Shown here in pieces: positions 44,091 through 54,498 of a DNA stretch of 64,000 nucleotides; within the stretch, counting starts at the first letter, position 1, and every line of letters begins with the position of its first letter. The notes beneath the pieces were generated by a model. It saw nothing but the letters and a program-made list of their open reading frames with translations. It had not been told where the DNA came from and did no database searches. The position numbers and the translations under genes were made by a program. Source of the DNA: Tsukamurella sp. 1534 (GTDB taxonomy: Bacteria > Actinomycetota > Actinomycetes > Mycobacteriales > Mycobacteriaceae); the NCBI RefSeq assembly GCF_000312385.1, contig NZ_HE997626.1, positions 297,206 through 361,205 of the forward strand. Reading direction: 5' to 3'.

Positions 44091-45014
44091 CTACGGACCC
44101 GCCGTCAGCGCGACGCCGAGCAGGGCGGTGTACAGCGCGAGGACGAACAGCAGGGCGGGCGCGATCGGGTACTCGTCCTCGCCGGAGCGTGCGAATCGCA
44201 CGGCCCCGGACACCGGCAGGGCGAGCAGGACGACCGGGCTCCAGCCGAGCACGGCCGCAGCACCGTGCAGGTTCCACGGCCGGATCAGGAGGACCGCCGC
44301 CACGGCCGCGAGCGCGGCGAACCCGAGCCCGGCGATCGCGCTGGCACGCACCCCCAGTTCGGACGAGTAGTACGCCTCGCCGGGATGCGGGCCGCGAGAC
44401 GTCTTGCGCGCGAACTCGAACTGCAGGAACGCGCCCGCGAAGATCGCGGCGGTCCACGCCGCGCCCGCCGCTCGCGGCACCTCGCCGGTGTCCATCGCCG
44501 ACACCAGGACGTAGGCGGTCACCAGGAGCTGCACCGGGTAGGTGATCACGAGGTTGAGCACGACCGACCCACCCATCGGGGGCCATCGCGCCTCCAGCAG
44601 CCACAGCAGCAGCCCGTACAGCAGCACGGCCGCGATCGCGAGGGCCGACCCCGCGGAGAGCGCCGCCGAGGCGCCCACCGCCACGACGGCGATGATCGCC
44701 ATCGCCGCCCGCAGGTCCGCCGCCGTGACGGCCCCGGTGACGAGGGGCCTATCGGGGTTGTGCACGCGGTCGTAGTCGAGATCCTTCTGCTCGTCGACCA
44801 TGCGCAGGTACAGGAGGACGATCACCACCACCGCCGCGCGGACGGCGGTCGCGGCGCCGGGGGCCCACTCCCCGCCTGTGACGACGGCAGCGGTCCCCTC
44901 CAGGGCGAGCACCCACAGCACGCCGTAGAGCACGTAGTGCGGCTTGTACATCACCGCCGTGAAGCGCGCGATCCGCGCCGGCGACACCGCGGCAGCATCC
45001 ACCGTCGTGTTCAC
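44091..45014 (-). CDS. UbiA-family prenyltransferase
   Basis: A 307-aa integral membrane protein with about nine helices. It resembles UbiA-like intramembrane transferases that use a prenyl (or related) diphosphate. The first Asp-rich motif is MVDEQKDLDYDRVHNPDRPL, in the DExKD...HPDRP form of the family; the second region is FARKTSRGPHPGEAYYSSEL, comparable to the FEIGRK...ETYS segment. The GTG at 45014 overlaps the AfsA stop codon. It is the last gene of the seven-gene operon. The donor and acceptor are unknown. Confidence 0.82.
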   Translation of the reverse strand: MNTTVDAAAVSPARIARFTAVMYKPHYVLYGVLWVLALEGTAAVVTGGEWAPGAATAVRAAVVVIVLLYLRMVDEQKDLDYDRVHNPDRPLVTGAVTAADLRAAMAIIAVVAVGASAALSAGSALAIAAVLLYGLLLWLLEARWPPMGGSVVLNLVITYPVQLLVTAYVLVSAMDTGEVPRAAGAAWTAAIFAGAFLQFEFARKTSRGPHPGEAYYSSELGVRASAIAGLGFAALAAVAAVLLIRPWNLHGAAAVLGWSPVVLLALPVSGAVRFARSGEDEYPIAPALLFVLALYTALLGVALTAGP

Positions 45015-51764: not shown

Positions 51765-54498
51765 CGTCGTCTCCTCCCGAGAGCACGGTGACGGTCCCGG
51801 CGGTCCCGTCCACCCGCACGCGCATTCCGGTCCGGATGGCGCCCGCCGCGCCGCGCAGCTGGACCACGGTGGGAACACCCAGCTCCCGGGCCACGATCGC
51901 GACGTGGGTGAGCGGGCTCCCGCGTTCGATCACCAGTGCCGACGCCGACGGCAGCGCGGCGACCCAGCCCGGGTCCGTGCGGTACGCGACGAGCACCCCG
52001 CCCGCCACGTCGCCGGGCTCCGTCATCACCACGGCGCGTCCCTCCACGATCCCGCCGGCCGACGGCGAGCCCCGCAGCACCACGCCGTCGGCCGCGGCGG
52101 CGACGTCGGAGACGGGCACCCAGCCCTGGGCTGCGAGCTCGGCGTCGCCGAGATCCGGGCCCCGGGTCTCGAAGCGCTCGGGCGCGACCAGCCCCGCGTC
52201 GCGCTCCCGGGCGGCGCGGCGGGCGGCCACCCGGTCACGCAGACCGGCGCCGGCCTCCGGGGCCCGGTACGCGTCCCGCAGTTCGTCGATGGTGAGCTCG
52301 AAGACGTCGCGGAAGTCGTCGATCTCGCCGCGGGCCGCGAGGTCGCGGCCCATCACCCGGATCAGCCGCTTGACCATGCCGAAGGCGCGGGTCCGGCAGA
52401 ACCGCAGGCGTTCCCGGTGGGCGGCGCACCGCGAGACCTTGCCCCGCAGCCGCTCGTAGACCCGGCGGCGCACGCCGTGCAGGTGCGCGTCCAGGTACTC
52501 GTCCGCGGTCTGCACGGGGGCGGTCTCCCCCGGTACCCCCGGGGCGTCCGCCGCGCGGGCGAGGCCGCTGCGCAGCATGAGGTACACCGAGGAGGGATCC
52601 TCGTGCAGGTCGGGGACCTCCAGCTTGAGCTCGTCCAGGCTGCGGTAGCCGTACCGGGCGAGGTAGTCGTCGAGTCCGGCGCGGAAGTCCTCGTGCGCGC
52701 CGGACCGGACCGCGGCGTCGATCGTGGCGGGATCCGCGGTGTCGATCAGGCTCCGCAGCGCGGGGTCGGCCGCGGCGCGCTCCGCCAGCGCGGTCATGGC
52801 GCGGGCCGGCTCCGCCGACTCCACATCGGCGCCGGGGCCGATCACGGCGTAGAGGAACCACTCCGGCGCCCTCGGCAGGAGGACCTTGGTGAGCGCGTAC
52901 ATCGAGCCGGTCAGGGTGAGCAGCACCGCGTCGAGCACCATGAGCGGCCCCCATCGCCGCACCAGGTCGCCCTCCACGCGGAGGTAGGCCTCGTAGGCCT
53001 CGGCGCCGGACATCGCGTCGAGGTCCACCGCCTCGAAATCGTCGTACACGCGGTAGAACTCGCGGAGGAAATCGGCGACGACCGCGTCGATCGTCCACAG
53101 TCGCCGCGCGTACGTCGCGGTGGTGACCAGCCGCGAACGCAGGCGTTGCAGCGGACCGTCGAACGTGAACGGGCGGAGCGCGCCGGCCGTGCCGGAGTCG
53201 AGCGGCTCGCTGACGCCGAGCGCCGCCTCCAGCACCTTGCGGTTGAGCGGGTACCCGGGCGCGATGCCGACCATGCGGTACCAGTGCAGCAGGTTGTAGT
53301 AGACGCGGGAGTGGAAGCAGCCCAGCATGTACGGGGTCCACTCGTCGATCTGCCGCAGCTGCGCCGCGGGCACCCGCAGCGATGCGGCGTAGCCGCGGTA
53401 CACGCGGCTGTAGATGTCGGCGGCGGTGGTGAACGTGAGCGGCGAGGTGAGTCCGCTGAAGCTCTCGATGATGTTGGAGTTGTCCCAGATCCGGGCGTCG
53501 CCGGCGGCCAGCGGCTCTCCCGCCCCGCGCAGCAGCAGCGCGGGATCCGGTTCGGCCGCCGCCGGGAGTGCGGGCGCGATGGCGGTGATCGGGCGCGACT
53601 GCAGGAACCAGAAGTCGGTACCGTCGTGCGCCCACTCGACGTCCTGCGGCTCGCCCAGGGCGGCGGCCAGGTCGCGCGCCAGCGAACAGAGCTCCCGGAC
53701 GCGATCGGGCGGGAGCGCGCACTCACCCCGCGCACCGTCGGCGACGGGGAGCTGCACCGCCCCCGCGGACCCGCTGGGCCGGAAGCTGGTGGCCTTCTCG
53801 CCGACCACCACCTCCGCGGCCCCGCCCGCGTCCACGGTGACCGTGTCGGCGTCGACGGCGCCCGATACGAGCCCCTCGCCCAGTCCGTACACGGCGCTGA
53901 CCACGGTCTCATCGGTCGCGCCGGTGATCGGGTTGGCGGTGAACACGACCCCGCTGACCTCGGCGTCCACCAGCCGCTGCAGCACCACGGCGACGCCACC
54001 GGAAGGCCGCCGGCCGGCGGCGAACGCGTAGCCGACGGAGCGCTCGGTGAACGCGGACACCCAGCAGCGGCGGACCCGGTCGGTCACGTCGTCGAGGCCG
54101 TTGACGTTGAGGAAGGTGTCGAACTGGCCGGCGTAGGAGGCCTCGGCGCCGTCCTCCACCGTCGTGGAGGAGCGCACGGCGATCGCGCCCTCGCCGACGG
54201 CGCGGTAGGCGTCCGCGATCAGCTCGCGCAACGGCGCCGGGAGCTCCGCCGACGCGATCGCCGCGCGGATCCGCGCGGCGTGCTCATGGGCCTCGGATTC
54301 CTCTGCCGCGCTGTGGAAGTCCTCGATCAGGCCGGCGAATCCGGAGTCCCGTGCGAGGGTGTCGAAGGCGTCGGTGCCCACGACGGACCACTCCGGCACC
54401 CGCAGGCCGCTCCTCTCCAGGAGGGCGAGCCCGTGGCTCTTCCCCCCGCCGAGCACCCCGAGTGTTTCCGGGTCCGTCCACGGGCCCAATACCTGCAT
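51757..54498 (-). CDS. Rifampin-phosphotransferase-like dikinase (PEP synthase superfamily)
   Basis: A 913-aa three-domain enzyme. The ATP-grasp domain (residues 1-~315) has LGGGKSHGLALLERSGLRVP, AIAVRSSTTVEDGAEASYAG, SGVVFTANPITGATDETVVS and EWAHDGTDFWFLQSRPI. A large middle domain (~320-770) starts RIWDNSNIIESFSGLTSPLT, as in the rifampin-binding domain of RPH. The C-terminal swivelling domain carries the phospho-His in ERGSPLTHVAIVARELGVPT. There is no PEP-binding TIM barrel, so it is RPH-like: ATP gives AMP and a phosphate on an acceptor hydroxyl. Hydroxyl acceptor unknown. First gene of the operon; AGGAGGAG precedes ATG 54498. Confidence 0.85.
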   Translation of the reverse strand: MQVLGPWTDPETLGVLGGGKSHGLALLERSGLRVPEWSVVGTDAFDTLARDSGFAGLIEDFHSAAEESEAHEHAARIRAAIASAELPAPLRELIADAYRAVGEGAIAVRSSTTVEDGAEASYAGQFDTFLNVNGLDDVTDRVRRCWVSAFTERSVGYAFAAGRRPSGGVAVVLQRLVDAEVSGVVFTANPITGATDETVVSAVYGLGEGLVSGAVDADTVTVDAGGAAEVVVGEKATSFRPSGSAGAVQLPVADGARGECALPPDRVRELCSLARDLAAALGEPQDVEWAHDGTDFWFLQSRPITAIAPALPAAAEPDPALLLRGAGEPLAAGDARIWDNSNIIESFSGLTSPLTFTTAADIYSRVYRGYAASLRVPAAQLRQIDEWTPYMLGCFHSRVYYNLLHWYRMVGIAPGYPLNRKVLEAALGVSEPLDSGTAGALRPFTFDGPLQRLRSRLVTTATYARRLWTIDAVVADFLREFYRVYDDFEAVDLDAMSGAEAYEAYLRVEGDLVRRWGPLMVLDAVLLTLTGSMYALTKVLLPRAPEWFLYAVIGPGADVESAEPARAMTALAERAAADPALRSLIDTADPATIDAAVRSGAHEDFRAGLDDYLARYGYRSLDELKLEVPDLHEDPSSVYLMLRSGLARAADAPGVPGETAPVQTADEYLDAHLHGVRRRVYERLRGKVSRCAAHRERLRFCRTRAFGMVKRLIRVMGRDLAARGEIDDFRDVFELTIDELRDAYRAPEAGAGLRDRVAARRAARERDAGLVAPERFETRGPDLGDAELAAQGWVPVSDVAAAADGVVLRGSPSAGGIVEGRAVVMTEPGDVAGGVLVAYRTDPGWVAALPSASALVIERGSPLTHVAIVARELGVPTVVQLRGAAGAIRTGMRVRVDGTAGTVTVLSGGDDDA

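Follow-up and report, generated by a model that had tools for sequence, protein, structure and literature searches.

A co-inherited AfsA- and UbiA-containing gene cluster of Tsukamurella sp. 1534 as a candidate pathway to lipid-tailed small molecules

Introduction

What might seven overlapping genes make when their products come from such different enzyme families? The question is raised by a 64,000-nucleotide stretch of DNA from Tsukamurella sp. 1534 (contig NZ_HE997626.1, positions 297,206 to 361,205), which is called the window here. Genes A to G on its minus strand encode an ATP dikinase, a fatty acyl-AMP ligase (FAAL)-like domain fused to a nucleotidyltransferase, an acyl carrier protein (ACP), a thioester-reductase-like short-chain dehydrogenase/reductase (SDR), a nucleoside diphosphate kinase (NDK)-like protein, an AfsA-type condensing enzyme and a UbiA-superfamily transferase. 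This operon is an AfsA-containing biosynthetic cluster. Each enzyme family is already known, and the combination seems to be without a described pathway. In the open-access PubMed Central (PMC) literature, judged by listing and without coverage of MIBiG or subscription journals, no published description of this gene set was found. Within that literature, the statement of the first-pass annotation that no characterised pathway has this composition still holds. We propose, with a probability of about 0.42, that the product of this conserved pathway is a small molecule with an alkyl (lipid) tail, in many cases glycosylated and oxidised.

Results

Operon organization and protein families

The operon occupies positions 44091-54498 of the window and runs from A, on the 54498 side, to G. 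Neighbouring genes overlap at all six junctions, by 8, 4, 4, 4, 14 and 4 nt from A to G, and GGAGG-type sites lie upstream of A and of B. The first-pass annotation had described seven overlapping minus-strand genes as certainly one translational unit. The overlaps (4-14 nt) are present at every junction, and translational coupling is likely rather than certain. The families that it named agree with our scoring of the proteins against Pfam and NCBIfam models (Table 1). It had overlooked the nucleotidyltransferase part of B, the unusual motif II of the UbiA protein and the loci that lack the FAAL and the ACP.

Table 1. Features of the operon and the surrounding cassette, in positions of the window
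Feature	Position	Strand	Basis or remark
A: ATP dikinase, RPH/RedH-like, 913 aa	51757..54498	-	Pfam PPDK_N and PEP-utilizers; NCBIfam PRK06241.2-2
B: FAAL-like domain B1 (about residues 1-570) fused to nucleotidyltransferase part B2 (about 580-1143)	48333..51764	-	
C: acyl carrier protein, 95 aa	48049..48336	-	Pfam PP-binding, 26.8 bits
D: thioester-reductase-like SDR, 359 aa	46973..48052	-	Pfam NAD_binding_4
E: diverged NDK-like kinase, 309 aa	46047..46976	-	Pfam NDK, 42.8 bits
F: AfsA/ScbA-type condensing enzyme, 349 aa	45011..46060	-	Pfam AfsA, 126.2 bits; NCBIfam ScbA/BarX
G: UbiA-superfamily transferase with altered motif II, 307 aa	44091..45014	-	
GT4 glycosyltransferase-cytochrome P450 fusion (start not refined)	41343..44075	+	Pfam GT4 and p450
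GT1 glycosyltransferase (start not refined)	40171..41460	-	EryCIII-like_C match
Cassette: operon, GT4-P450 and GT1, 14.3 kb	40171..54498	.	Present here and in genome G304

The roles of the catalytic residues named below are known from the respective families. Dikinase A exceeds the cut-off of its NCBIfam model (940.4 vs 883 bits), whereas RedH, its third-best model (335.5 bits, cut-off 1350), and the rifamycin phosphotransferase model Rph (302.8 bits, cut-off 999) stay under theirs. T864-H865 is conserved in at least 95% of 84 rows. B1 matches Pfam AMP-binding and has FAAL-type models near the top of its NCBIfam list (242, 197 and 183 bits); none of the 25 models shown, out of 92, reaches its cut-off, not even the top-scoring one, a 'CoA ligase' subfamily (263.9 vs 572 bits). 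The predicted structure of B2 has the kanamycin nucleotidyltransferase fold (model pLDDT 92.6), with the GS..SDxD motif and third carboxylate of that type. At locus L036, B1 and B2 are encoded in two distinct frames. In the ACP, S51 is conserved in at least 95% of 61 rows. SDR D passes the Pfam NAD_binding_4 cut-off (121 vs 20.1 bits) and reaches 110.5 bits with the NCBIfam Thioester-redct model, short of the cut-off of 213.35. Its Y144 and K148 are conserved in at least 95% of 85 rows.

Protein E scores 35.2 bits with the NDK equivalog model, under the cut-off of 155. It has the catalytic His and the phosphate-binding K/R/N of nucleoside diphosphate kinases: K44, R145, N156 and H159 are conserved in at least 95% of 81 rows and line up with solved NDKs. 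F, of which the window protein alone was scored, passes the ScbA/BarX cut-off marginally (202.2 vs 200 bits), and its paired ExxRQ motifs at 89-93 and 261-265 are conserved in at least 95% of 80 rows. It is the least conserved of the six components compared (48-49% to its nearest relatives). G has the UbiA fold, with a Pfam UbiA score under the cut-off (11.1 vs 34.2 bits). In its Asp-rich motif I, D74, D78 and D82 are invariant in 34 rows and E75 is nearly so. Where motif II is read, the same number of rows has an invariant E200-x-A202-R203-K204-T205, and the motif residues are kept in at least 95% of 80 rows.

Distribution and co-inheritance

In named genomes, 124 loci were confirmed by a scan that used six B2 rows and two peptide patterns; 80 of them were returned. 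Together with five further loci these gave 85 loci mapped by tblastn, in which B2 is present by construction. L032 and L075 are one record, so that 84 loci are distinct. The hosts are mostly Nocardia and Streptomyces; Kutzneria, Antrihabitans, Rhodococcus, Actinoplanes, mycobacteria and two metagenome-assembled genomes are among the others. The full order A-B1-B2-C-D-E-F-G is found in 53/84 distinct loci, and 19/84 have the core A-B2-D-E-F-G without FAAL and ACP. E, F and G are all present in 78; the remaining six are the variants L079, L082 and L083 and the loci L061, L111 and L123, which are cut by contig ends. The set recurs in many actinomycetes. The set is patchy, since among 394 genomes drawn from the class (three candidates scored per genome) B2 had a match at E<=0.001 in 11 and a full-length match in 6.

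For A, B2, D, E, F and G, the matrices of pairwise distances are correlated with one another (r 0.918-0.975; 15 pairs, 78 distinct sets). The maximum in 300 permutations per pair was 0.131, or 0.149 with the duplicate record included, which left the range of r the same. The shared gene order and these co-varying matrices support the earlier claim of one biosynthetic system, in the sense that the genes are co-inherited.

Some loci carry additional genes. The F-G gap is 400-900 nt in 31 of the 78 loci; the one gap scanned, that of L031, encodes a Nitroreductase by Pfam, and an SGxNRQ motif is common to 17/31 gaps under a rough choice of frame. A FabH gene adjoins the core in some Streptomyces loci. 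NDK-like relatives of E (E 5e-18 or better) occur in 15/298 genomes of the order, and those inspected outside the operon lie in unrelated gene contexts. NDK-like proteins also occur in other candidate clusters (L041, L042, L044 and L180). Their partners are EPSP synthase with acyl-CoA dehydrogenase, radical SAM with carbamoyltransferase, or a weak PP-loop match, and one such gene is carried by an Enterobacter plasmid, close to the gene of a nucleotidyltransferase family protein. In genome G293 (L033, 6958-10483, minus strand) A and E are adjacent, with no other operon genes in the 19.9 kb examined; this pair is perhaps a deletion remnant.

The cassette and its insertion site

The operon, the GT4-P450 gene and the GT1 gene form one cassette. 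We compared six flanks, using the ECH gene as right marker and the frame opposite the LysE gene as left marker. The site is nearly empty in three relatives: the distance between the markers is about 0.7 kb in G301, 1.3 kb in G300 and 1.2 kb in G310, vs 14.5 kb here. G238 has 5.5 kb between the markers with no matches to window genes, and G303 gave no match to the left marker. G304 carries the whole cassette, including GT4-P450 and GT1, at the same site. B2 is present in 2/16 genomes of the genus, and the second of these, G304 (83% complete), has it in pieces. The G304 cassette (L160, 2266-16624) is split over several reading frames, through assembly error or gene decay. The GC content of the cassette is 0.736 vs 0.714 and 0.708 in the flanks.

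GT4-P450 is convergent with the operon and is a single 910-aa frame. L032 carries the same fusion (896 aa, 58% identity). Among the 71 distinct loci with more than 4.5 kb of available sequence after G, relatives of GT1 are found in 17, of GT4 in 12 and of P450 in 24. The adjoining genes had been assigned to the system before; because the cassette is present or absent as a unit with both, and the neighbours recur, this assignment is supported. Some mycobacterial loci, L034 and L117 among them, have a P450 that shows no GT4 match.

Variant loci with exchanged genes

L079 and L082 keep B1-B2-C-D. Both also have a dikinase, at 34% to A, and a UbiA protein that shares the E-x-A-R-K motif with G; in L079 the latter stands at 26% to G across 237 columns. 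Within the stretch examined, neither locus has an NDK-like (E) or AfsA (F) match. Each has two thymidylate-kinase-like proteins in place of the NDK-like gene, and in place of AfsA both have genes for ketosynthase (KS), ACP and thioesterase. By scan L079 also encodes a nonribosomal peptide synthetase (NRPS) of condensation, adenylation and peptidyl carrier domains, and L082 has an incomplete gene that falls into the same similarity group. An FtsX protein is present in the L079 cluster, the only one of the two scanned for it. In L083, D is followed by an acyl-CoA dehydrogenase.

Should E and the thymidylate-kinase-like proteins have one function in common, this would probably be the phosphorylation of a monophosphate. 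F and the KS/NRPS proteins, if likewise equivalent, would make the acceptor. The exchanges in L079 and L082 would fit a donor module, from acid to diphosphate and UbiA, combined with exchangeable acceptor makers. The acyl-CoA dehydrogenase of L083 could give an alpha,beta-unsaturated acyl group, and thus an allylic alcohol after reduction.

Discussion

We infer the steps of the proposed pathway from protein families and conserved residues. FAAL-like B1 would activate an acid and load it on ACP C; in the loci without FAAL and ACP, the thioester might be supplied by primary metabolism. SDR D would reduce the thioester to an aldehyde or alcohol, dikinase A would phosphorylate the hydroxyl, and the NDK-like phosphohistidine enzyme E would add a second phosphate. 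AfsA F may make the acceptor by joining a beta-ketoacyl thioester to a C3 (or sugar) phosphate. In the membrane, G would move the alkyl group from the diphosphate to this acceptor, and GT1, GT4 and P450 might decorate the product. B2 probably adenylylates a hydroxyl. This pathway is supported because the predicted catalytic residues are kept, the gene order is conserved, the matrices co-vary and the cassette behaves as a unit. The idea of an alcohol converted to a diphosphate for UbiA, which the first-pass annotation had raised, gains comparative support from the loci with exchanged genes, and the unusual motif II counts against it.

Several observations weigh against this pathway. UbiA enzymes normally require an allylic donor, and none of the nine cassette proteins was recognised as a desaturating enzyme. 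The usual substrates of NDK are nucleoside diphosphates. G does not have the Asp-rich motif II of classic two-Mg UbiA prenyltransferases; its motif II is basic, like the one-Mg site of Rv3806c. The strictly kept B2 has no place in the route, and 19 loci do without FAAL and ACP. High correlations between distance matrices are also expected from common vertical descent. The swapped variant consists of L079 and L082 plus L083, where no UbiA was identified, and 3/6 of its marker matches are weak: the L079 UbiA and the second kinase-like protein of L082 are below their Pfam cut-offs, and the second kinase-like protein of L079 is just above.

The unusual motif II leaves room for a phosphoribosyltransferase-like reaction of G. 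FAAL, ACP, SDR and dikinase would then make an alkyl phosphate. With a diphosphate sugar as donor, G would transfer a (phospho)pentosyl group, or one like it, to this phosphate, and the glycosyltransferases would extend the resulting lipid-phosphate sugar. R/K replaces Asp in motif II of G, and the dikinase product would indeed be an alkyl phosphate. Among the 50 Foldseek matches listed for G, 8j8j has the highest TM-score (TMq 0.66), at 15% structure-based identity. The phosphoribosyltransferase Rv3806c binds diphosphate by one Mg2+ plus basic residues (PMC10994848). We consider this reaction unlikely, with the proposed alkyl transfer by G preferred.

It is slightly less likely that AfsA makes a gamma-butyrolactone-like signal as the core product and the other genes are tailoring genes. 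The ScbA/BarX match of F and its presence with E and G in nearly all distinct loci are consistent with such a signal. However, no regulator family was found among the nine cassette proteins, including no ArpA-type TetR receptor (most other window open reading frames lie outside the scans), and F is the least conserved component. AfsA co-varies with UbiA, NDK, dikinase and nucleotidyltransferase, none of which, to our knowledge, belongs to the known gamma-butyrolactone routes.

Alternatively, the product could be an envelope lipid, made or altered by these enzymes, and not a metabolite released from the cell. FAAL and GT4 genes are known from clusters for envelope lipids, and the fold of G is close to an archaeal lipid synthase. 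The patchy distribution within the genus and the class argues against this, as do the loci in Streptomyces, which has no mycolic envelope, and we regard an envelope role as quite improbable. Least probable is a dikinase that acts as a RedH/PigC-type ligase: it would phosphorylate a carbonyl and link the aldehyde from the SDR to the AfsA product, while the NDK-like protein would recycle ATP or be a structural partner. The third rank of RedH among the models of A speaks for this reading. Against it, the RedH score is far under its cut-off and barely above Rph, and the UbiA and the kinase swap are not accounted for.

If the proposed pathway is true, UbiA enzymes would not be limited to isoprenoid donors, and an undescribed class of metabolites from Nocardia, Streptomyces and mycobacteria could be tested one gene at a time. 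It is a more doubtful, wider possibility that actinomycetes have a general route in which thioester-bound acids become alkyl (allylic) diphosphates through reduction followed by two transfers of a phosphoryl group, which would enable UbiA to attach non-isoprenoid chains, with AfsA or KS/NRPS acceptor modules exchangeable. Even with other chemistry, the co-inherited set of AfsA, UbiA, dikinase, NDK-like and kanamycin-nucleotidyltransferase-like proteins points to a pathway for which we found no described member.

The operon has elements in common with several known systems. It shares the AfsA-type condensing enzyme with the A-factor/ScbA gamma-butyrolactone pathways, but here AfsA is joined to FAAL, dikinase, nucleotidyltransferase, NDK and UbiA, and no receptor or BprA-type reductase was identified among the cassette proteins. 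The methylenomycin cluster also has an AfsA-like enzyme, and the FabH gene beside the core of some Streptomyces loci is a further resemblance to it; we know of no UbiA, dikinase or NDK there. G has the fold and the Asp-rich motif I of UbiA prenyltransferases and DGGGP synthase, but its motif II is E-x-A-R-K-T, and no prenyl synthase was identified among the cassette proteins. Although the acceptor-binding lysines of Rv3806c decaprenylphosphoryl phosphoribosyltransferase are not obviously matched in G by eye, both proteins have the UbiA fold and carry basic residues in place of the second Mg2+ site of other UbiA enzymes. A scores far under the curated cut-offs of RedH/PigC and rifamycin phosphotransferase, but shares with them the dikinase domain order and the kept His.
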